Shown: positions 13,754 to 31,090 of the stretch, piece by piece
Layout of the letters: each line of letters opens with the position of its first letter
Position numbering within the stretch: position 1 is the first letter of the stretch
NCBI GenBank assembly: GCA_937872535.1
Contig: CALMTC010000005.1
Coordinates: 1-42,799 of the forward strand
Reading direction: 5' to 3'
DNA length: 42,799 nucleotides
Source of the DNA: an uncultured bacterium
Lineage (GTDB): Bacteria > Patescibacteriota > Gracilibacteria > Absconditabacterales > Absconditicoccaceae
Program-made: the position numbers and the translations under genes
Notes under the pieces: model-generated
What the model was told of the DNA's origin: nothing
Database searches by the model: none
What the model saw: only the letters and a program-made list of their open reading frames with translations

Positions 13754-14080
13754 CTAGCACAAAATATCCAGATAGAGGAGTACCTCGTCATCGGCTTGGA
13801 TATGAAGTTCATGACGAACTTCAGCCTTGATCGGCAGTAAATAAGTCCCAGTCTTGCCCTCAGGAAATATGCTCGTCACTCGCGAAAAAAATCAGATTCT
13901 GGCTCTTATTTTCATTGATCATCGTCACTTTTTCGGCATCGTAGCTGAGATTTTTTTGATCTGCTGAGAAATATCCCTCGGTACATTCACAAAGTGCCAG
14001 GAAGCTGGAGATTTTCCATTATTCCACAGCCAAATCTTCGCAGAAAATTCAAAACTTCCTGAAAGTTTTTTTTCTGGCAT
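13754..14080 (-). CDS. DUF1905-domain protein
   Basis: This 108-aa protein matches the DUF1905 pattern. FEFSAKIWLWNNGKSPASW is followed by FVNVPRDISQQIK, KKGRGSMKIRARIG and GTYLLPIKAEVRHELHIQADDEV. The family is a small beta-barrel of unknown role, often next to DUF1801, PhnB-type and YdeI-type genes in stress-related clusters, as here. The glycines in KKGRGS and RARIG are UGA. Its start lies 84 bp from the structured RNA element on the opposite strand. Confidence 0.75.
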
Positions 14081-14163
14081 ATAAATTTCTAAAAAATAAA
14101 AATAAGTAACAAATAATCTCTAAAAAAGAAAAGTTTCCTAGAAGAAGATAACTATTAGTCAAC

Positions 14164-14310
14164 GCCAACGCAACCTTGTCTGAGGTCCAACCTCATGGTA
14201 GAAAAAATTGAACGAGACGATCCTTTGATGGTGAGTCGGTAGAACCAAGAAAAAACATAGTGAGTAGTCAAGGAGCAAGAAGGAGAGTAAAGACGAGAAT
14301 TTGCGTTGGC
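14164..14310 (+). ncRNA. Candidate structured RNA, copy 1
   Basis: This 147-nt element is closed by GCCAACGCAA at its start and TTGCGTTGGC at its end (10 bp), followed by TAGATTTTTTT, a terminator-like U-run. Inside, CTTGTC can pair with GACGAG next to the closing stem, and TGAGGT-CCA-ACCTCA forms a hairpin. A second copy at 41592-41739 is nearly identical. Differences inside that hairpin turn G-C and U-A into G-U and U-G pairs, so pairing is kept. No plausible protein is encoded on either strand. It does not resemble RNase P RNA, tmRNA, SRP RNA or 6S RNA in any motif I know. Confidence 0.5.
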
Positions 14311-14321
14311 TAGATTTTTTT

Positions 14322-14374
14322 AAGGTGAGAATTTATTTTTCAAGCGAAGAGAAGAAAAATAATTTACTCACCTT
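14322..14374. repeat. Large hairpin specific to RNA-element copy 1
   Basis: AAGGTGAG plus ATTTATTTTTC pairs with GAAAAATAATTTACTCACCTT around a GAAGA-type loop, a stem of about 19 bp with small defects. It lies in the roughly 130-bp segment present in the copy at 14164 but absent from the copy at 41592. It is followed by another inverted repeat, CCCGCA...TGCGGG (14420-14472), enclosing a TATAAT. Confidence 0.55.
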
Positions 14375-14455
14375 ACTTACGAAGTGTTTGGTTTCTTTTC
14401 GATTGCCAGTGTTTTCGATCCCGCAAAAATAGTAAATATAATTTTATGCGGGGTT

Positions 14456-14530
14456 TGTAGCAATGATAAAAAAGAAATGCCAACCCGGCCGAGGGTTGAA
14501 AAAATGTGATAAGAATCTTTTCTATTGTAG
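14456..14530. repeat. Module B of the two-copy element, copy 1
   Basis: GCAATGATAAAAAAG is followed by a small hairpin (CAACCC-GGCCGA-GGGTTG) and an AT-rich tail with ATAAGAAT and CTATTGTAGG. The same series, diverged, follows the second structured RNA at 41765-41840. It marks the outer limit of a shared element rather than just a shared RNA. Confidence 0.5.
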
Positions 14531-14599
14531 GTGAGTTTTACTTATAAAAGCGAACCTTTTGTTGTAGAATAAAATATTTTCAGTATAATTAGAAACTTA

Positions 14600-14869
14600 C
14601 TATTTCCATCTTTTCAGTCTCGGGATCTGATACCAAGCCATCATTCTCATCGGTCGTCGAAATCATTTTTCTTTCATTTTCTCCCAAACTAGCTCCTGCA
14701 TCCCTTTCACCGTCGCATCTGGTCGACAAAACTTCCCATCTTTGTAACACAAACTACAGTACATCGTACTTTTGCTACCATCTTTCTCCGTCCCTCCTTT
14801 CTCAGAATCCTGATCAAAAGGCATTCCACAAGACTGACACTGTCGTTCACACGGTAGTGATTTTTTCAT
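14600..14869 (-). CDS. Putative zinc-ribbon protein
   Basis: This 89-aa protein has a Cys-rich N-terminal part: CQSCGMPF followed by YCSLCYKDGKF. It gives CxxC...CxxC knuckles that match the 'putative zinc ribbon' family (PF12674 type), with MQELVWEKMKEK and a C-terminal basic IPRLKRWK stretch as seen in homologues. That C-terminal part is only recovered by reading one TGA as Gly. Zinc binding is very likely; the biological role is unknown. A duplicated 23-bp sequence lies between it and the AlkZ-like gene upstream. Confidence 0.75.
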
Positions 14870-14904
14870 CGTTTCTCAAAAAAATAAATCTCCCGGATTC
14901 TACA

Positions 14905-14950
14905 AAAAATCTGCTTGATTTCCAACCAAAAATCTGCTTGATTTCCAACC
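14905..14950. repeat. Tandem duplication of 23 bp
   Basis: AAAAATCTGCTTGATTTCCA plus ACC occurs twice in direct tandem, ending 2 bp before the stop codon of the AlkZ-like gene. It is perfect, so probably a recent replication-slippage event. Confidence 0.8.
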
Positions 14951-14952
14951 AA

Positions 14953-16032
14953 TTAGTCTGTGATCTGAATTTTCTCTACTCCCCAAAATCCTGCATATTT
15001 CTCAGCTTCTGCATGAATAGCGTCTTTATCAAGTTTTACTCACGGCAAAGCTGTAATTGTGAAAACTACAGTATCTTTTTTCCAAGCACGCTTCCAGACT
15101 CCAGCCACTTTCCCATCTACTACGATCAGCGGGAAAAATATCCCATTACTGGTGAAAAGTTTTCCATAATGTTCAGTGTCTGCGACTATGGATCTATCTT
15201 TATATCACAAAAAATATTCATCAAATCCTCACAATAAAAAAATTTTTCATTCTGCTTTTTTTTGTCAGCTTACGAGATCACCAGAAAAATAATATTTTTT
15301 ACCGTTATATTCAAGAAATTCAAACTGATCTTCCACGAGCGAGATAGCTTTTTTGCAGTCGGTTTTGCTAAGTCCAGATCGTCGAGCGAGATCATCAGCC
15401 GTCGCTGGTCAGTGCCCAGTCAGATAAAGAGTCGCCAGCTTTGCGAGCTGCTCATCACGATTCAGGCTTTTTATATCGGCTGGCACCCACTCATCGAGTA
15501 AGACAAAGGTCTCTTCTTTCTCAGTCGGAGCTCAGAAACAAATCAGTCCGAGAGTCGCAGCATAGCAAGCCAGATGATAGACTCGCTGACTCTGCATGGG
15601 GATTCATCACTCTTTGAGGGTCTCACCAAGCTGTGTACGAGTCAGATTTTTTCATCATTTGAGAGCTTTCGACATAATATCGAGAGCTTTCTCAGCATGT
15701 TTGCTGTCCATTCAGAGATAATCTCTGCGTTTCTCAAATCATCCCAAAGTCTTGGAAGCACATAGATCGAGCATCCATCTGACATTCTCAGGTGCCAAAT
15801 AATGCAAAGTCCCTCTCATCGGTCGAGTACGCACGATCTCTCAGCTTCTCAATGCATTGACGATAGTTTCTTTGGTCGCACTTTTCATACGCGATCCCAC
15901 ACACCAGATCGCCTGACCTATATCCTGAGCCTGCATCGCCCCCATCTGAGAAACGACCTCATACACACTCGTGTGGCGAGGTGAGATCAGTCAGTGAGAT
16001 TGAAGACGAAGCGAGATTATGTGTGATTGCAT
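14953..16032 (-). CDS. Winged-helix DNA-binding protein, AlkZ/YcaQ-like
   Basis: This 359-aa protein matches the HTH_42 family (winged-helix repeats, related to AlkZ/YcaQ DNA glycosylases that unhook interstrand crosslinks). Visible hallmarks are an N-terminal SVYEVVSQMGAMQAQD, a REIVRTRPMRGTLHYLAPE-like block with a Gly read from UGA, GHGPATADDLARRSGLSKTD (winged helix), and GGFDEYFLGYKDRS. The catalytic QxQ/QxD motif of AlkZ corresponds to 'MQAQD', which is present. About 15 UGA codons encode Gly, showing the gene is fully adapted to the local code. Activity on DNA is an inference. Confidence 0.75.
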
Positions 16033-16156
16033 GGGAGAAGGAGAAATAAAAAGATTTTAGTTGTTAGATAATGATTGTTTTTCAAGAAATTCTTTGTCGT
16101 AAAACTTATTCATTCAAGAACAATAATGATCAATTCAAAAAACTCACGGAAAAATT

Positions 16157-16387
16157 TTAACCTCATAATCAAGCTATCTTACTTAAATATTCTAAAGATT
16201 TACTTATTATAGAGAAACAATCCTCTTGAGTTATTTCGTACGATTTTAATGAATTATGCACTAATGTATTTCTTTTTTTTCTCAATCAATCTAATATTAT
16301 ATATTCTTCATTACTAATTTTTCATAGAAATTTTTCTGGTAATATAAAGAATCAGAAATAATTTTTTCATCAATTTACAGCCGTCAT
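16157..16387 (-). CDS. Small HEPN-like protein
   Basis: This 76-aa frame contains ILDGLRKKRNTLVHNSLKSY. RNTLVH (Arg39-Asn40-x3-His44) is the catalytic RNxxxH motif of HEPN ribonucleases and HEPN/MNT toxins. A helical segment EDCFSIISKSLEYLSKIAGL follows. The frame is short for a HEPN domain (about 110-140 aa). An in-frame TAA lies just before the ATG, so an N-terminal helix may have been lost to decay. No MNT nucleotidyltransferase partner is adjacent. Several glycines are UGA. Confidence 0.5.
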
Positions 16388-16497
16388 TAGTTAATTTATT
16401 TTTTTTATGTAAATCTAAAATTATATACATTTGAATTTTTCGTATTTTATAATTCATTCTAACAAAAGTTTTTCATTGCTCAATGAGCTAAGTTTTT

Positions 16498-17385
16498 CTA
16501 CTCTCCAGCTCTCCTCAACGCTTCCACATCCAGCTTCACCATCTTTAGCATCGCTTGCATTACTTTTTCGACTTTGGCAGGATCTTTTTTGGTCATGAGT
16601 TCTCCTAAAATTTCAGGGATAATCTGCCAAGTCACACCGTACTTATCCACAAGTCGGCCACATTGTTGAGCTTGTCAGCCTTCGAGAAGTGCGTTTCGAT
16701 ATTTGTCAATTTCTTGCTGATCTTTACAATTTACGAGAAACGAAATTGCTCAGTTCATAGCGAATTGGTGAGCATAAGTGCTTTCCAGCGCTCCAAATTG
16801 ATAGCCATCGAGAGTAAATTTTGCGTGTTTGATCAAGCCAACTTTATCACCATCTCACTCTTCGTAGCGGGCGATCAGATCAGTTTTTGAATTTGGGAAA
16901 AGCTGAGTATAAAAATTTACAGCCTCTTCGACTTTCCCAGCTTTGTCTCAGATAAACATCATAAACGGAGTGATTTTTTGTTTCGCAGGAGCCAAGCTCA
17001 CCTGTCGAGAAACTCCATATTTATCAGAAACTCGGCCAAATTTTTGGCTAAACGGATACTGCTGATATGGCATCATGACCACTCATCCATCAGATAATTT
17101 CGCTCGAAGCGCATCGATTTCCTCTTCACTCTCGCAGTTCACAAAAAACGATGTCGCAGGCGTGAAACTCATGTAAGGTCCACCATTGATCGCCGTAAAT
17201 TCCTGCCCAGCCAGCTCAAAATCAATGGTCAAAATTTTTCATTCTGCAATCCCAGAAACCTCAGCTCCAGACTTACCATAGCGAGCAGTATAAGTAATTT
17301 TTGAACCCTTAAAAAGTGAAACATAAAAGTTCACTGCTTCCTCGATATTTTTTTCAAATCGGAGATTAAGAACGATCTTTTGCAT
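16498..17385 (-). CDS. Tandem VOC (PhnB/3-dmu-9_3-mt type) protein
   Basis: This 295-aa protein has two consecutive vicinal-oxygen-chelate domains. The first is at about residues 1-140 ([20 protein letters not shown]...[18 protein letters not shown]), the second at about 150-270 ([20 protein letters not shown]...YQFGALES). Each carries the 'W/KYGVSWQI' type C-terminal strand ([20 protein letters not shown]). This matches the 3-demethylubiquinone methyltransferase-like/PhnB family, whose members are mostly of unknown function despite the name. It clusters with other small DUF genes and a second VOC protein at 19214. Confidence 0.8.
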
Positions 17386-17490
17386 TGTTATATTTTTGAA
17401 ATGATAAAAACTTAATAATTTCCAGTATTTTAATTTGCATTTTAAATATTTTTGATTATCATGGAGTCACTTTTGGGGCTACCCACCGAT

Positions 17491-17508
17491 CTCCGGCATA
17501 CGTCGGAG
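17491..17508. repeat. Short GC-rich hairpin
   Basis: CTCCG-GCATACGT-CGGAG forms a 5-bp GC-rich stem in an AT-rich spacer between the MazF-like and VOC genes. It may be a degenerate repeat or a weak terminator of the MazF-like transcript's neighbour. Confidence 0.35.
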
Positions 17509-17520
17509 TGATAATATGAT

Positions 17521-17913
17521 TTAAGGAAGTTCAAGTAAATACTTGAGCTTTTCTTTTACTTGAAAAAAATCTTTATCATCCAATGTTGCAAGACGACGCT
17601 GAAAGCGATTTGTACTCATCATGCGAATTTGGTATAATAATGCCCAGCTTTTCTCGTCGTGAATTGTGATTTCACTAAACCATGAACCATCTTTTGGCTT
17701 TGAGGTCAGAGGAATAGCTATACAGCTTGTTCCAGAAAGTTTTTTTATAATTAGTACTGGACGACGAAATGTTTCTCATTTACCACAAGACTCTGAACCA
17801 ATATTAAGTCAAATAGCTGTTCGCCAGATTTCTCATTCTTTAAAAAATATTTTTCCATCTTTTATCTCCAAATCTTTTTTATGGCTATTCCATTTATCAA
17901 ATTCTTTAAGCAT
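17521..17913 (-). CDS. PemK/MazF-family toxin, orphan
   Basis: This 130-aa protein shows FFKEGEIWRTAIGLNIGSES, then GKGETFRRPVLIIKKLSGTS, IPLTSKPKDGSWF and ALLYQIRMMSTNRF. This is the order of motifs in MazF/PemK endoribonucleases, which cut mRNA at short recognition sequences. No antitoxin-like gene is adjacent: the gene upstream on the same strand is a DUF1801 protein 50 bp away, as often seen for orphan PemK genes in CPR bacteria. Function as a toxin without a neighbouring antitoxin is uncertain. Confidence 0.75.
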
Positions 17914-17963
17914 TAAGTTGTTATTATAAAAATGCAAAATCAATACATCATTTCATGAAAAAC

Positions 17964-18341
17964 TTATTCTGACTTTCAACCACTCTTTTTCTCCCCATTT
18001 TCTCTCACTCTAATCTGTACGATCTTTTTCACCAATCCTGCTGATAAAGGTTTATCCACTGGAAAACGAATAGTTCATTTTGAAACATCATATTTTGCCA
18101 GCTCATCACCGAGTTTATCAACGAGTGTCTGAGTCGTACCATATAAAGCACAGTGTTTTTTCGCCGCCCCCAGTCAAATCAACATACCGTGATACGAAAA
18201 CATAATCACCCCCCAGCTAATCTTAGCAGTCGCTTCTTTTGGCACTGCCGCTCTGATCATCTCATAAACTTTCTGCACCGTCTCGCGTTGTCCATCTTGT
18301 AGAAATAAAATATATTCATCTATTGTAGCTGGTTTTTTCAT
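17964..18341 (-). CDS. DUF1801/YdhG-like protein
   Basis: This 125-aa protein has TIDEYILFLQ, VYEMIRAAVPKEATAKISWG, ALYG and the C-terminal GTIRFPVDKPLSAGLVKKIV, matching the DUF1801 family (B. subtilis YdhG, proposed iron chaperone). The basic tail KKSGGKSE is typical of Gram-positive homologues. It lies upstream of and on the same strand as the MazF-like gene, and it diverges from a second DUF1801 gene at 18492. Biochemical role unknown. Confidence 0.75.
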
Positions 18342-18458
18342 CGGAACTTTGTTTTAGTAAAAAATCAGCTCTTGTAATTGGTAATTCGTTCAATAATCTG
18401 AAGATATAACTGTTTTCAATATAGTATCAAAATCTTCAAATATTACAACTTAAATAAG

Positions 18459-18476
18459 GAAAAAATTTTTATTCTG
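18459..18476 (+). promoter_or_regulatory. TATTCTG motif before DUF1801 gene
   Basis: AAAAAATTTTTATTCTG, with TATTCT at 18470-18475, lies 16 bases before the ATG at 18492. It is the same element as before miaA and clpP. Confidence 0.4.
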
Positions 18477-18491
18477 ATAAAACCTCAAAAT

Positions 18492-18905
18492 ATGAATATG
18501 TTCAAATCGGTAAAGGCAACTACCGTAAAAGAATACTTAGAATCTATACCAGCAGATCGCAAAGACACGATTTTATTTCTTCATGATTTTATTCAGAAAA
18601 TATCTCCAACATTCAAAAGTCACTTTGCAGCAAACATGCTTGGTTATTGATCATTTCCTTATAAAGGCTACAAAAAAGAAATGCTAGAACGACCTATTAT
18701 CTCACTTGCCAACCAAAAAAATTACATCAGCCTCTATGTCTGCTCTATCGAAAACAGTGAATATTTAGCCGAAAAAAACAAATCAAAACTAGGCAAAGTC
18801 AGTGTATGAAAAAGCTGTATTCGCTTCAAAAAACTTGAAGACCTAAATTTACCAGAACTCAAAAAAGTTTTAGAAAAAGCAGCAAAAAGCCCAGGATTAG
18901 TTTAG
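18492..18905 (+). CDS. DUF1801-domain protein
   Basis: This 137-aa protein starts MNMFKSVKATTVKEYLESIP and carries HFAANMLGYGSFPYKGYKK, ISLYVCSIENSEYLAEKNKS and GKSCIRFKKLEDLNLPELKK, the arrangement of DUF1801 proteins. It is less similar to the neighbour at 17964 than expected for a recent duplicate. Glycines in GYGS and SVGKS are UGA. A start at the second Met (18498) is also possible. Function unknown. Confidence 0.75.
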
Positions 18906-18980
18906 AAATTTATAAAATCACATCTCCATGTCTCCGCGCCTAAACATTCCCATGCCTCCATGATCTCCACGTCTGCATGT

Positions 18981-19190
18981 CTACCCTCTCCACCAGTTCC
19001 ACACAAAACCCACCACAAACCAAGGAAAAATGACATATCCGCCATAAAATCTCGTCAATGCAAAAAAGACCTCTTTACCTGTAACTCATGGCTGATCAAA
19101 AGCAAATGGTACGACAAAAGGCAAACTAAGCACGCACAGAAAAAGTATGACCGCTATAAATTTCATGGTTTTTGTGAGTATTTTTTTCAT
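18981..19190 (-). CDS. Small membrane protein
   Basis: This 69-aa protein has a hydrophobic N-terminal helix (FIAVILFLCVLSLPFVVPFAF) and a second hydrophobic stretch (YVIFPWFVVGFVWNWW), so it is probably a two-helix inner-membrane protein. It ends at a TAG right after WWRG. Beyond the TAG, the same frame continues with a Gly/Met/Arg-rich stretch (GDHGGMGMFRRG) that looks like the tail of related small membrane proteins, so the stop may be a recent nonsense mutation. An alternative start is the ATG at 19166. Confidence 0.5.
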
Positions 19191-19213
19191 AGTCTAGCAT
19201 AGCCAAAATAAAA

Positions 19214-19630
19214 CTACGCAGCTTTTGGCTTATCCCAATTCAAGTACCAGCACACCCCAAACTTATCAGTGAAACCAGCAAATTTAGCTCACCAGAAGGT
19301 GTCCTGCAGAGCGATTCAGATTTTTTGAGCATCAGCCGAAAGTTTAGTGTACAAGTCTGTGATTTCAGCATCGCTAGTGCAGTTGATTGAGATGTAGTTG
19401 TTTGTTCAAAAGGCGACATCACTGCCTTTCACATCAGAAAACATCAGCTCATTTTCTCATCGTCTGATATACGCATGCATGACTCGATTTCCCATCTCTC
19501 AGTCGACTGGATATTCAGGAGTTTCGCTATATCTCTGGAGCATCACCAGCTCTGCGTGAAATATTTCTTTGTAAAACGAAAGTGCGTTTTCAGCTGTACC
19601 GACGAAGTGGAGGTAAGGTGCGATTTTCAT
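19214..19630 (-). CDS. VOC family protein (PhnB-like)
   Basis: This 138-aa single-domain VOC protein begins MKIAPYLHFVGTAENALSFY, continues with GNRVMHAYIRRGENELMFSD and ends FAGFTDKFGVCWYLNWDKP. This is the layout of PhnB-like glyoxalase-fold proteins, which usually dimerise to form metal-binding clefts. Substrate unknown. It is unrelated in close sequence to the tandem VOC gene at 16498 and closes the accessory block. Confidence 0.8.
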
Positions 19631-19725: not shown

Positions 19726-19753
19726 CAAAAAAAGCGGGAGAGGACTCCCACTT
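19726..19753 (-). terminator. Terminator of the T9SS-tailed gene
   Basis: On the minus strand, AAGTGGGAG-TCCT-CTCCCGCTT forms a 9-bp stem (one G-U pair) followed by TTTTTT, 10 bp beyond the TAG at 19764. Confidence 0.88.
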
Positions 19754-19763
19754 CATAAAATAC

Positions 19764-22472
19764 CTAATATATAAAAAGTTTTTTTACTACAGTAGTCTCA
19801 TAAGAGGCTACCGAAACGATAAATAATCCAGCCGGTAGAGAAAAATCTCTCATAGTATGATCTTCCAGGAGAATTTTTTCCTCACTTACTTTTTCACCAC
19901 TGACCGAATAAATATCGACCAGTAGTTCAAGTTTTTCAGCGCTTTTGTTTTGAAAAACTAGTTTATTACCAGAGCTATAGAAATCCCAAGTTTTTTGACT
20001 CTGAATTTCTACGACTTCTGTATAATTTATGGTGCCATCAAGGTCAATAGCTGCGATACGATAGTAGCAGCGATCAACTTGAGTACTTGCTGTGATAAAC
20101 TCATAGTTCATTCTAGGAAAAACTTTCCCCAAAGCTACGAAATTGTAGCCGTCAATACTTCTCTGTACTTCAAAGTGAGTAAGTTTTTCTTCTCGTTCTG
20201 TACTCCATTTTATTTTGTCTTCAAGATTGTCTCGAGAGACAGTAAATGAAGTAAATTCTACAGGCAGAGGAGTACTTCCAAGCACAGCAAAGGGAGAAAA
20301 GTTTGTAATGCCAGCTCGAGTCCTTTGAAAGTAACCAGAGGTAATTGTCGATGCACCAAGTGCTTGACTATCCCATGTTGGTCCGTCAAAGTGGCTCACA
20401 TAGCACTGAGCTCTATTAAAGCTAGGAAGCTCCTGAGCTGTTTTCCAGCGTAAAGCCATAGCGATAATAGATCCGCCAAGAGTTTGTTCGTCAAACATCC
20501 AGGTAGCATTTACTACTCCAGAAGTATAAGCAAATCCACTCGTCCCAGCTGTAAAAACCTGATCAAATACTCTAGCACCAAAGTGATCTCTCGTCCCAGT
20601 ATTGATGACTGAAATCGGCAAACAAGCCGTCAGTGTGCCAATGGGATAGAAAACAGCAGTACTCAAACCACCAGGTCCAACCTCTCTTTGAATGAGTCGC
20701 CCCATTCCGTTAGTAATGACATAACTTGGAGTAGGATCTGCTGCTGCAGTGATCGAGTATATATGTCTATCGTTTCTGATCGTAAGATCAAAATTCCCGA
20801 TTTGTATATACCCAGCACTGAGTAATAAACCACCTCTACCAACAATAACATTACATTCTAAAAAAAGTTTTTTTCCTGTTCCATTCATCCCCAAAGCTCT
20901 AATGACAGGTATCCCATCACTTCTTAAGGTAATGTTTTTAGTCACAATAGAACTCAGAGTATCAAAAGGTGCTACGCTACTCAATGGTTCATAGTAACCG
21001 ATTGAAGATCCACCGCTTTTCACATTGAGTATCCAGCCATCCTGACATTTAGCCAAGACTCTATTGATACTAGGAAAAGTTGTATTCGCAAAGCAGCTTC
21101 CACAAGAGAAAAAACTATTGGGAGTGATATAGGCTTGATTGTCAGTTACTTCGACAAATCCAAATCCAACTTGTGTGTCAGTCCAGTGAAGAATGAGATC
21201 TTCCACTTGGTACATATCAGTAAGATTTGTTCCATTTACTCTCCAAGTATTCCCAGTAGTCGCATCGATATCTCCCGTACTAACCGACTGATTGACGATA
21301 AATAAGTTCTGAGAAGCAGGAGAAATAACTCCTGTTAACTCAAAAATAGTATTTGTCATAACCAGCGGTGTTGCTGGATTGATAGTTGGTGTACAGCTCA
21401 AGTAAGTCCCTATATCATTGAAATAGAAACAAGCTCGAGTTCTGCCATCAGCTAGTCCATTGCTAACGAAGTGATTGCTATCGACCAAAATCTGAGCCAC
21501 ATCAGTGTAAGAGGTAATTCGAAATGGTGTAGCAGGAGCTCCATCATAGCCAGGAGCAGCAGGATTGACCCCCCAGGTTCCAGAAATTATATTGTTTTTT
21601 ATTACCATCTGCTGAGCAGGGAGGAATGAAAAAACATAAGTTGTGGGACCACAGGGCGGTGTTGTATTGCCATTATCCCAGCCTCTTAGATGAAGACCAA
21701 TGCCGCCATCTCCACTCGAAATGGTGTTTTTTTCGATATATGCTCTGCCGTTGTAACGGAAAAACATAATATCTCCAAGTCCCATTTGAATATCAGAGCC
21801 ATTAGACTGAAACTGAGAATTTTTTAATGCTACAGAATCTAAATCTACTGGATTCTTAGTGGGATGTCCACAAATACTTACTCCATTGAACGCATTACTT
21901 GTAAAAGTGCAGCTATCAATGGATATTCTTTGTAACTTCGTCACAGGAATGTTACTAAAGTTACCAAATCCAATGCTATTGTTGCTTAGATCTGAGTGTT
22001 TTACCACCAGATCAGTGACGGTACTATGAGCAGCATAGCCAACACCGATACTGCAGCCATTAGCTGAGATGCTATCGATGAAGATTGCTGAAACAGTGCC
22101 TGTCGTGACGCAGCCATAACTAGCAGCAGCACCAGTCAATCTCAACTTTTTCACTAAGATTGGTTGAGATAAAGTTCCACTTGCTGTTATAGAAATAGCT
22201 GGAGTACCTGTTCCAGGAGGATCAATGATCGTGCTGTTTCCAGCGCCGATTATTGTGAGTTTTTTACTTACAGTCACAGCTTCTGGATAAGTTCCAGTAG
22301 CTATGCTGATTGTATCACCATCGACAGCTTGCCCTAGAGCATAGCTGATAGTTTGACAAGGAGAACTGAGACAGTTTCCTGTATTAGTCCCCGTAGTTGC
22401 TACCAGTCTTTGCTGGCAAAGAGCAATGCTAGTCATGGAGACTAGAAATGCCAAAATTACAAGATGCTTCAT
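19764..22472 (-). CDS. Beta-helix surface protein with T9SS-type C-terminal tail
   Basis: This 902-aa protein has a signal peptide (KHLVILAFLVSMTSIALCQQ), then a right-handed parallel beta-helix region (about 30-450) beginning with a 'PCQTISYALGQAVDGDTISI' repeat typical of pectin-lyase-like folds. Next comes a domain with LPVEFTSFTVSRDN...IKWSTEREEKLTHFEVQRS, the fibronectin-like segment common in Bacteroidota secreted proteins. It ends in a type IX secretion tail (about 830-902: IYSVSGEKV...PAGLFIVSVASYE...KKLFIY). About 82 glycines are all GGN; not one UGA occurs, unlike the genes around it. This argues for recent transfer from a standard-code Bacteroidota. Export by T9SS is impossible unless that system exists here. 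Confidence 0.85.
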   Translation of the reverse strand: MKHLVILAFLVSMTSIALCQQRLVATTGTNTGNCLSSPCQTISYALGQAVDGDTISIATGTYPEAVTVSKKLTIIGAGNSTIIDPPGTGTPAISITASGTLSQPILVKKLRLTGAAASYGCVTTGTVSAIFIDSISANGCSIGVGYAAHSTVTDLVVKHSDLSNNSIGFGNFSNIPVTKLQRISIDSCTFTSNAFNGVSICGHPTKNPVDLDSVALKNSQFQSNGSDIQMGLGDIMFFRYNGRAYIEKNTISSGDGGIGLHLRGWDNGNTTPPCGPTTYVFSFLPAQQMVIKNNIISGTWGVNPAAPGYDGAPATPFRITSYTDVAQILVDSNHFVSNGLADGRTRACFYFNDIGTYLSCTPTINPATPLVMTNTIFELTGVISPASQNLFIVNQSVSTGDIDATTGNTWRVNGTNLTDMYQVEDLILHWTDTQVGFGFVEVTDNQAYITPNSFFSCGSCFANTTFPSINRVLAKCQDGWILNVKSGGSSIGYYEPLSSVAPFDTLSSIVTKNITLRSDGIPVIRALGMNGTGKKLFLECNVIVGRGGLLLSAGYIQIGNFDLTIRNDRHIYSITAAADPTPSYVITNGMGRLIQREVGPGGLSTAVFYPIGTLTACLPISVINTGTRDHFGARVFDQVFTAGTSGFAYTSGVVNATWMFDEQTLGGSIIAMALRWKTAQELPSFNRAQCYVSHFDGPTWDSQALGASTITSGYFQRTRAGITNFSPFAVLGSTPLPVEFTSFTVSRDNLEDKIKWSTEREEKLTHFEVQRSIDGYNFVALGKVFPRMNYEFITASTQVDRCYYRIAAIDLDGTINYTEVVEIQSQKTWDFYSSGNKLVFQNKSAEKLELLVDIYSVSGEKVSEEKILLEDHTMRDFSLPAGLFIVSVASYETTVVKKLFIY

Positions 22473-22497
22473 ATTTTTTTTATTGTGGTCCTTTTGA

Positions 22498-22514: not shown

Positions 22515-22597
22515 AAATGCCTTATAGATAAGTTTTTAAAAAAGTCAAGTCCTGGTTGGTGTATTCTGATTATAAGCCAGAAAAATATTTTTAAAAA

Positions 22598-28339: not shown

Positions 28340-31090
28340 ATGGCAACAAAAAAAAGCTTTATGGTATGAATAGCTCTTACAGCGCTATTTTTTGGTTCAT
28401 TAGCGAGCCAGACCACTTTTGCGAGTCCAATAATGTGGTTGACGACTGGGGCTCAACTAGATAATATAGAAGAAGCGGTCGATGTAGTCTCAGATTCAGC
28501 AGGTAATACTTATGCTGCTTATGTTTTTGGTACAGCTACTACGATCTGAGGGACTACAGTTACTGCTATTTGAGATGTAGATTCTCTCATAGTGAAACTC
28601 GACTCACAGGGAAATGTAGTTTGGACTACTAGTATGGCAGGTATAGGAGAAGATAGACTAAATTCTCTTGCTATTTGAGATGATGGAAATCTTATTGCAT
28701 GATGAAGATTTACTGATACAACAAACGCTTTTGGTACGACTCTTACGAGCGTGGCAAGTTCTGACATTGTAGTAGCTAAAATCGATGCAACAAATGGAAT
28801 GTGACTTATGGTGACGGCTCACGGTTGAATTTGAGCTGATACTATTTGAGAAATGAAAGTAAGTTGATGATTCGTTTATATCGTGGGGCATTTTGATGGT
28901 ACGAGTCAAATCTTTGGAAGTTCATTAACGACAGTTTGAGGTTCTACAGATATTTTCTTTGCAAAAGTAAGCCAATCAGATTTCACGACTGCTGTGTGGG
29001 TTAAAACAATTGCTGGAGTTCAATTAGATCCTTTTGATCCACCAGCAAATTGACACGAAATCTGAAAAGATATAGGGGTAGATTCAAATGGAAATGTTTT
29101 TATTCTGGGAACTTTTACTGATAATTATATCGAACCAGCAACAGGTTTTCTTTTGACGCTTAATGGAGCAGGATTTTCAGATTCTTTCGTAGCTAAATTT
29201 GATCAAAATGGTGATGGAGTACGAGCTACTAAGCTTCACTCTACATCTTGGTACGACGAAGGAAGAAGGATTGCAGTGTCTCCAAGTGGTGAAGTTTTTG
29301 TAGTTGGTTATTATGGTGGACGCACTGTACCAGTTTCTATTGCTTGATTTACACCATTTTTTGCTGTAGCAGAAAGAAACTCATTTTTCCAGAAACTAGC
29401 AAGTGACGGTTCAGTTGTACTAACAAATCTCTGAGTTGGTGCAAATACAACAGCAGGATTCGAATATTTGGATAATTTTGGGCAGTGAGTAGAAATTGTA
29501 TGAAATTATGTCTATCTCTTAGGAAATTTTGGTGGAACTATGGATTTTTTATGAACCACTCTTTCTGGATTTGCAGTAAGACACTGATTCATGGCTAAAT
29601 TACAGCTTGATGGAACTCCAATCCGAGTCAAAGAAATTTGATGAACAGGAACTGAGCTTAACGGAATTGAATGAAAGGCACTGACTAGTTTTTCAGATGG
29701 TACGCTTGGTTTGGTAGGGCATTTTGGTTGACAATCTTGGCTATTTGATCGCTCTTTAGCAAATGATGTTACCTTTTTCAATAAAAAACCAAATGTCGAT
29801 GCATACATTGCAAAGCTTTGTTTTGATTCAGATCTACAGGTTTCTATTTCGGTGGCAAGTTGAGTGATGACAGGTCAACTTGTTCCAGTTCAGTTCTCAT
29901 TTTTTAATAGCGGTTCTTGTTTCGTAGAAAATAGCGATCTGTCATGGACATTATGAACTTGATTTTCTGGTGGGTTTACCACAGGAATGACAGTTTCATT
30001 TGCTCCTATGAGTGGCTATACTTTTGTAGTGACAGGACTAGTGGATGCGTCTTTACTATCTTGAGATTTAGTGTATCTTGGAGCATCAGTTGGGACTGGC
30101 GATCTACGACTAGATACTAATATGGCTAATAATACTGCTACAGCTACAGCAATAGTCTCAGCAACTACGGGATGATGAGGATGAGGATGATGAGGATGAG
30201 GATGATGAGGATGATGAGGATGAGGATGATGAGGATGATGAGGATGATGAGGTTGAGGATCTACATCAGGATCAACAGTTTCCACAGGATTTATAGTTGG
30301 TAGTTGAGATGTTCTTACATGATTGAGGGAACAAATTATTGCTCTAGAAAATGTAATCAGTGACTGTGCTTACTCAGATCTCAAATATAAAGATATCGTT
30401 TTTGCAGATATTGAAAAACACACTCAAAGACCAGAAATTCAAACTCTTCTTAACTATTGTATTGTGCAGGGAAGAGCTCCATTGCAGTTTGTTCCAGAAG
30501 GGGAAACAACTCGTGCTGAGCTTATAAAAGTAGCTATAAAGCTTGCTTTATCGAATCAAAGATTCAACTTTAAAGAATTCAATCCAAAATCAACATATGT
30601 TGATGTGTCACAAGATGATTGGTATTTGCCTTATATTATGAAAGCAGATGAACTTAATCTTCTCGGACCACTAGCAGAAAAACAAGCAGATGGCTATCAT
30701 ATAAGACCAGACGATGCCATCAAGACGAAAGAAGCTTTGATTATTCTCGGTAAGGCAATTAGTTTTCATGACAAATCAGTAGATTTCAATACTATGATTA
30801 AAGACATTAATCAAGACCTGCCGTTTACAAGATCGATGATGTCAACGATCTCAGTAAAAGGATTTAATCTCAGTTATGATATCTGAATGTCAATGAGATC
30901 AGACAACTACACGCTTTTGAGAGTTCTTTTTAAAGCTATTAGAGATAAAAACTTTGAAGATCAGGTTAAATTTATTAATCTGCTTATCGCAAAAATCTCA
31001 CCAATTGATGATGAAACTCTCCTTACAAAGTATAATATCTATAAAAAAGGTCTTATAGAAGTACTCACTTCGACACTTGAAGGAAAGTAA
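28340..31090 (+). CDS. Surface protein: beta-propeller repeats, poly-Gly linker, SLH-like domain
   Basis: This 916-aa protein has a signal peptide (about 1-31) and an N-terminal domain of SBBP-like beta-propeller repeats, with recurring units such as 'DGNLIAGGRF', 'SNGNVFILGTF' and 'SGEVFVVGYY' (about 35-500). A CARDB-like segment (LQVSISVASGVMTGQ) is followed by a run of 30 glycines (611-640), and from about 662 there is an S-layer-homology-like region: DIVFADIEKH, EGETTRAELIKVAIKLA and STYVDVSQDDWYLPYIMKADELNLL. Many glycines are UGA, so the standard code shows only fragments. Probably a cell-surface protein anchored through the SLH part, with the poly-Gly as a flexible stalk. Confidence 0.85.
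30170..30259 (+). repeat. GGA/TGA microsatellite encoding 30 consecutive glycines
   Basis: Thirty in-frame codons are all GGN or TGA (18 TGA, 11 GGA and 1 GGT, in a mixed GGA-TGA-TGA and GGA-TGA pattern). Under code 25 all are Gly, forming a linker in the surface protein between its beta domains and the SLH-like region. The simple repeat is prone to slippage, so length may vary between strains without breaking the frame. Confidence 0.9.

Follow-up and report, generated by a model that had tools for sequence, protein, structure and literature searches.

Bacteroidota-type T9SS cargo genes free of UGA on UGA=Gly Gracilibacteria chromosomes, possibly kept readable in the standard code

In a family of Gracilibacteria that reads UGA as glycine, genes for secreted proteins ending in a T9SS sorting tail exclude this codon as a class and over long residence, and they combine this exclusion with native promoters, mostly native codons and export signals of the host type. 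The gene from which this analysis started lies in a window of 42,799 nucleotides, the whole stretch of DNA analysed, and is itself a UGA-free gene for Bacteroidota-type T9SS cargo in a recoded CPR genome, as had been proposed from the sequence alone. It is a member of a family-wide class of such cargo genes on UGA=Gly Gracilibacteria chromosomes. Selection may have kept this class readable in the standard code, the products acting in or through T9SS-bearing Bacteroidota hosts, an explanation that we regard as a serious possibility and hold tentatively. None of the literature searched was found to describe T9SS tails for Gracilibacteria.

In these genes the reassigned codon serves as a natural tracer for the place of reading, or for the reader. 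Were the exclusion selective, an episymbiotic or predatory CPR lineage would be keeping a set of genes meant for a standard-code cell; this would point to T9SS-bearing Bacteroidota as the hosts of the Gracilibacteria family and make both host identity and molecular exchange testable from sequence. If it results instead from gene flux, the same genes would provide a measure of unusually intense and selective host-to-parasite gene flow.

Architecture and relatives of the window protein

The gene is read from the minus strand, with an ATG ending at 22472 and a TAG at 19766-19764, the plus strand of 19764-22472 holding no coding frame; its features are collected in Table 1.

Table 1. Features of the T9SS-tailed gene and its flanks (positions in the window)
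Feature	Position	Strand	Remarks
T9SS-tailed secreted protein gene, 902 aa	19764..22472	-	82 GGN glycines, 0 UGA, stop TAG
Signal peptide, residues 1-19	22416..22472	-	Gln at +1 (ALC/QQRL, Bacteroidetes Q-rule); cleavage site inferred by eye
Beta-helix-type repeat segment, residues 44-109, NosD-like	22146..22343	-	short NosD match; Bacteroidota matches to residues 4-138
Middle module, residues 547-735	20268..20834	-	matched in Bacteroidota T9SS cargo
'LPVEFTSF' linker and Fn3-like segment, about residues 735-835	19966..20270	-	many Bacteroidota matches to 705-835
C-terminal type A T9SS sorting domain, residues 841-901	19770..19952	-	detectable, under curated cut-offs
Sigma-70-type promoter	22521..22548	-	TTGACT (22548-22543), 16-nt spacer, TATAAG (22526-22521); read by eye
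A-rich translation leader	22473..22492	-	A at 11/17 positions of -20..-4, without strong Shine-Dalgarno
Intrinsic terminator	19731..19754	-	10-pair stem, T tail, directly 3' of stop codon

An N-terminal Sec signal peptide, as carried by T9SS cargo, is recognised both in the sequence and by a simple script score. The sorting tail recognised in the sequence-only reading is confirmed, though weak against curated standards: it scores 18.2 bits with Pfam PF18962 (cut-off 27) and 19.4 with TIGR04183 (cut-off 23), unlike those of other members of the class, which exceed the curated cut-offs. This weak tail is backed by the homology of residues 513-900, linker and tail included, to Bacteroidota proteins annotated as T9SS type A sorting domain-containing. 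The proposed beta-helix likewise survives only as the short NosD match, TIGR04247 giving 28.2 bits against a cut-off of 300. Single-sequence structure models of the tail and beta-helix are of low confidence and match only general Ig-like folds, and a comparison with PDB sequences returned one marginal match.

The Bacteroidota relatives resemble the protein module by module, not along its full length. The best match reaches 34-40% over residues 513-889, within one Bacteroidota order; identity is 42% over residues 547-735 and at most 56% over short N-terminal stretches. Neither a full-length close homologue, in an incomplete sampling of 395 + 398 Bacteroidota genomes, nor a close donor was found, the best candidates among these ~790 genomes giving 31-42% over the C-terminal part. 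Compared with T9SS type A cargo of Bacteroidota (PF18962/TIGR04183), the window protein shares the signal peptide with Gln at +1, the modular beta-rich body, the 'LPVEFTSF' Fn3-like linker and the tail; it differs by its sub-cut-off tail, its native-type promoter and its location in a UGA=Gly CPR genome of a family where SprA was not found. Carriage by a virus or plasmid was considered and rejected: there was no viral or phage match, and the plasmid-borne relatives, whose annotation reads T9SS type A sorting domain-containing protein, are ordinary Bacteroidota cargo.

Absence of UGA and the question of transfer

The recount bore out what had first drawn attention to this gene, namely that none of its 82 glycines is encoded by TGA, as well as the 15 UGA codons reported for its AlkZ-like neighbour. 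The benchmark of 10% UGA used at the time was too low, as UGA makes up 0.344 of glycine codons in 282 kb of the same genome (G000; 1.25 Mb in 23 contigs), a baseline of 15 stretches and 243 genes picked without regard to tail genes. Across the 99 baseline genes with at least 20 glycines the UGA fraction ranges from 0.11 to 0.82 and is zero in none; only four genes with at least 10 glycines are UGA-free, all small (10-18 glycines each). Based on this baseline, the probability of 0/82 is ~1e-15 at the mean fraction and ~1e-8 at the lowest-decile fraction, which places the window gene far from chance.

Recent transfer from a standard-code Bacteroidota had been offered as the simplest explanation. 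The window gene does show what such a transfer predicts, the reassigned codon being absent (0/82), and a transfer at some date is likely, which may even have been recent: the gene has no close homologue by which to date it. It also lacks a syntenic orthologue, and the evidence for long residence comes from syntenic members of the class. As a general explanation, recent transfer is not supported: the UGA-free class is family-wide, spread over many contigs and often found at conserved loci, its synonymous sites being saturated or about as diverged as those of native genes while UGA never appears. The class resembles recently acquired foreign genes of recoded genomes in its foreign protein type and missing reassigned codon, but differs from them by its old conserved loci, native-like codons and promoters, and turnover of glycine codons without UGA. 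That transfer alone can yield UGA-free genes follows from two that do not encode cargo, one for a UPF0182 protein and one AsnRS-like. Both the 1009-aa UPF0182 membrane protein gene (L063 6395-9421) and the AsnRS-like gene (L086 2014-3306) lie in UGA-rich surroundings, and they look like recent imports unrelated to secretion.

The tail-gene class in the genome and the family

The PF18962 profile marks seven places in G000, of which six are convincing and lie on six contigs, window gene included. Four of these six tail genes are without any UGA; each of the other two, on contigs C15 and C8, holds a single one, which coincides with the last position of the tail (L048 8628-10055 and L051 10109-10897; reading them in code 25 adds up to 58 residues). 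At the genome level (E <= 0.001), such tails are present in 31 of the 49 genomes surveyed in the family of the window organism. A wider draw of 288 genomes of the class gave 43 with a tail, 30 of them in this same family, and the few clearly readable tail loci from other families use the standard code.

Among the 67 tail ORFs fetched together with their neighbourhoods, 55 contain no UGA, that is over 2,866 glycine codons in 27 genomes. In four more, UGA occurs only at the end of the tail, the position expected for a standard stop, and in two only upstream of the likely start. The remaining six contain real UGA; five of them are without a convincing signal peptide and none has a strongly A-rich leader. 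These UGA-containing proteins with tail-like C-termini (L105, L107, L111, the second tail ORF of L102, L093 and L062) may represent native proteins in which the tail fold has been reused. In the genes adjoining most tail genes, UGA accounts for 10-88% of glycine codons. Close homologues with UGA, named in the earlier reading as its refutation, were not encountered, relatives of the tail class being UGA-free as well. The search for T9SS genes suggested by the earlier reading was carried out for the pore SprA, which was found in none of the 30 family genomes tested and in 4/4 control Bacteroidota. The sample consists mostly of fragmented assemblies with mechanical ORFs as gene calls, the calls of signal peptides and leaders come from a simple script, and the Bacteroidota comparison refers to sampled genomes.

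Native-like and host-like features

The promoter of the window gene is outside the list of the automated scan, whose rule demands a T at the last -10 position, but it is of the type enriched upstream of the class. Native sigma-70-type promoters precede 26/48 tail genes where 8.8 would be expected, and the Bacteroidota -7 motif is not enriched upstream of tail genes (6 vs 5.6 expected); Bacteroidota controls give the reverse pattern. Expression in the host from host promoters was rejected for lack of this -7 motif.

Codon usage had been named as a check on foreign origin, and it did not reveal any for the window gene. UGA set aside, the codon model of its own genome ranks first of 23, against those of 22 other Gracilibacteria genomes, and beats 20/20 Bacteroidota sample models. 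Across 58 tail genes, the non-glycine codon families follow those of native neighbours, with none clearly shifted. A Gracilibacteria codon model beats every sampled Bacteroidota model for 40/51 tail genes, to be compared with 186/192 native genes and 10/161 Bacteroidota genes in the controls; the other 11, about a fifth, fit Bacteroidota codon usage better.

The signals for translation and sorting are of another kind. Gln at +1, a feature of Bacteroidota secreted proteins (PMC5837995), is found in 75% of tail-class proteins, vs 28% of native secreted and 69% of Bacteroidota proteins, and the canonical sorting-tail consensus IYPNP...G.Y...K..K is kept in the class. Leaders are A-rich at 0.63 in the tail class vs 0.36 in native genes and ~0.4 in sampled Bacteroidota. 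Work in Flavobacterium established that upstream nucleotides, including adenine at -3, tune initiation in Bacteroidota devoid of Shine-Dalgarno sequences (PMC6847099). As the leaders of the class are more A-rich than those of the sampled Bacteroidota, to consider them a host-like feature is suggestive only. A Shine-Dalgarno-like motif stands upstream of only 4% of native genes in the family.

Conserved loci and the case for repeated import

Many tail genes recur at equivalent loci from one genus to another: locus A next to the rpsL/rpsG block in genera g3, g13, g15 and g21, locus B adjoining an 800-aa gene in g3, g13 and g19, and locus C in three g19 genomes, among them the single-contig G026. 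Locus A of L079 and its relatives holds three UGA-free genes for secreted proteins, a cassette flanked by UGA-using genes. The cargo genes of L079 and L081 diverge at fourfold (third-position) sites by 0.55 vs 0.50 for native genes; of 154 shared glycines, 85 differ in their synonymous codon, and ~40 UGA would be expected from the behaviour of native genes where none is observed. Similarly, 34 are expected and none is observed in L063/L075, where the cargo protein is conserved at 69% vs 54% for native neighbours. The high protein identity combined with near-saturated synonymous sites shows that purifying selection acts on the well-conserved syntenic pairs, and the conserved loci show that many members of the class are old residents. 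Turnover takes place as well: with a d4 of 0.71 vs 0.41 for native genes, the L070 allele shows that some alleles at a conserved locus predate the species split.

Steady re-import is the main rival to selection and a real possibility in its own right. Bacteroidota cargo genes would repeatedly enter from a host or prey cell, settle at favoured loci or displace the alleles already there, with native promoters ahead of them, and disappear or be replaced in turn before UGA can accumulate; the window gene would be one of them. This would account for the host-like features, all tail-class proteins being Bacteroidota-like, and for the four genes, two of them in G000, that still end in a UGA working as a standard stop; the allele turnover at locus A, the UPF0182 and AsnRS-like imports and the 11/51 genes with Bacteroidota-like codon usage point in the same direction. 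It does not account for the L079/L081 cassettes, which keep the same order and a native-like neutral divergence with many synonymous glycine changes and no UGA, nor for the native codon usage of most genes. Besides, no close donor was found among the 395 + 398 sampled Bacteroidota genomes, including for the L079 gene, and UGA stops are rarer in tail genes than in Bacteroidota (4/62 vs 42/222, p 0.02).

Selection for readability in the standard code

Selection for standard-code readability, the explanation tentatively preferred here, would keep the tail ORFs decodable because a Bacteroidota cell using the standard code has to make the product, or at least be able to make it. There, the host Sec/SPase-I pathway would handle the Q-rule signal peptide and the host T9SS would recognise the C-terminal tail, bringing the protein to the host surface as a possible adhesin or receptor supplied by the parasite. 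Candidate routes into the host would be RNA transfer, cytoplasmic continuity or a regular alternation of the gene between both kinds of cells. We know of no case in which DNA or RNA passes from a Gracilibacterium to a host. Transcription by the host following DNA transfer is disfavoured by the native promoters and by the absence of promoters of the Bacteroidota type. In the most specific version, the genes would be transcribed by the parasite from its own promoters and their messages (or the genes) translated inside the Bacteroidota host, with ORF, leader, signal peptide and tail in host format and the product displayed on the host by its T9SS; as a whole, this chain of events is improbable and is proposed as speculation. 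The six UGA-containing tail ORFs, the fifth of genes with Bacteroidota-like codons and the turnover at L070 count against selection in general, as do the missing Bacteroidota promoters, the leaders richer in A than those of the sampled Bacteroidota and the UGA-free UPF0182 and AsnRS-like genes.

A cause inside the Gracilibacterium, either heavy translation or a phase of life with little UGA-reading tRNA-Gly that disfavours UGA, is unlikely. It would fit the native promoters, the strong A-rich leaders, which the same reason would produce and which are distinct in the class, and the low UGA content (5-18% in several genomes) of some ribosomal-block genes in genus g13. Against it, ribosomal-block genes of G014, G020 and G024 read 62-68% of their glycines from UGA, where tail genes read 0/344, the S12/S7 leaders are not A-rich, and the cargo genes show no clear shift in any other codon family. 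UGA is abundant in native secreted genes, and the Q-rule peptide and the tail would be left unexplained. High-expression codon bias was rejected on account of the free use of UGA by the ribosomal-block genes of these three genomes. The gene at 28340-31090 of the window, for a 916-aa secreted protein with a long poly-glycine stretch, differs from the cargo genes in its 50 UGA and encodes a native surface protein.

Bacteroidota pieces joined into Gracilibacteria contigs by assembly or binning, which mostly fragmented genomes and hosts perhaps abundant in the same samples might favour, are a very improbable source of the class given tail genes on six separate contigs of G000, UGA-using genes on both flanks, synteny across independent genomes, two tail genes in the single-contig G026 and native-type promoters.

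Related systems and neighbouring observations

Phages of Gracilibacteria/Absconditabacteria that avoid TGA and are readable in both codes have been described (Liu et al., 2023, PMC10746230) and are the nearest precedent on record. The tail genes share with these Code 11-compatible phages the lack of both in-frame TGA and TGA stops, and differ from them as single chromosomal genes among UGA-rich neighbours that encode only secreted proteins of the host type.

Next to the cargo gene, positions 13754-19630 of the window hold a cluster of accessory cytosolic genes of small size (DUF1905, AlkZ-like, two VOC/PhnB-like and two DUF1801) in which UGA is present; these are possibly older acquisitions, contrasting with the adjacent UGA-free gene. 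In another genome, a nearly UGA-free stretch (L106, G064 C55:77510-89671; UGA at 3/109 glycines) carries repeated GIY-YIG-like genes and is possibly a mobile element of the code-compatible kind, or else a contig of foreign origin.
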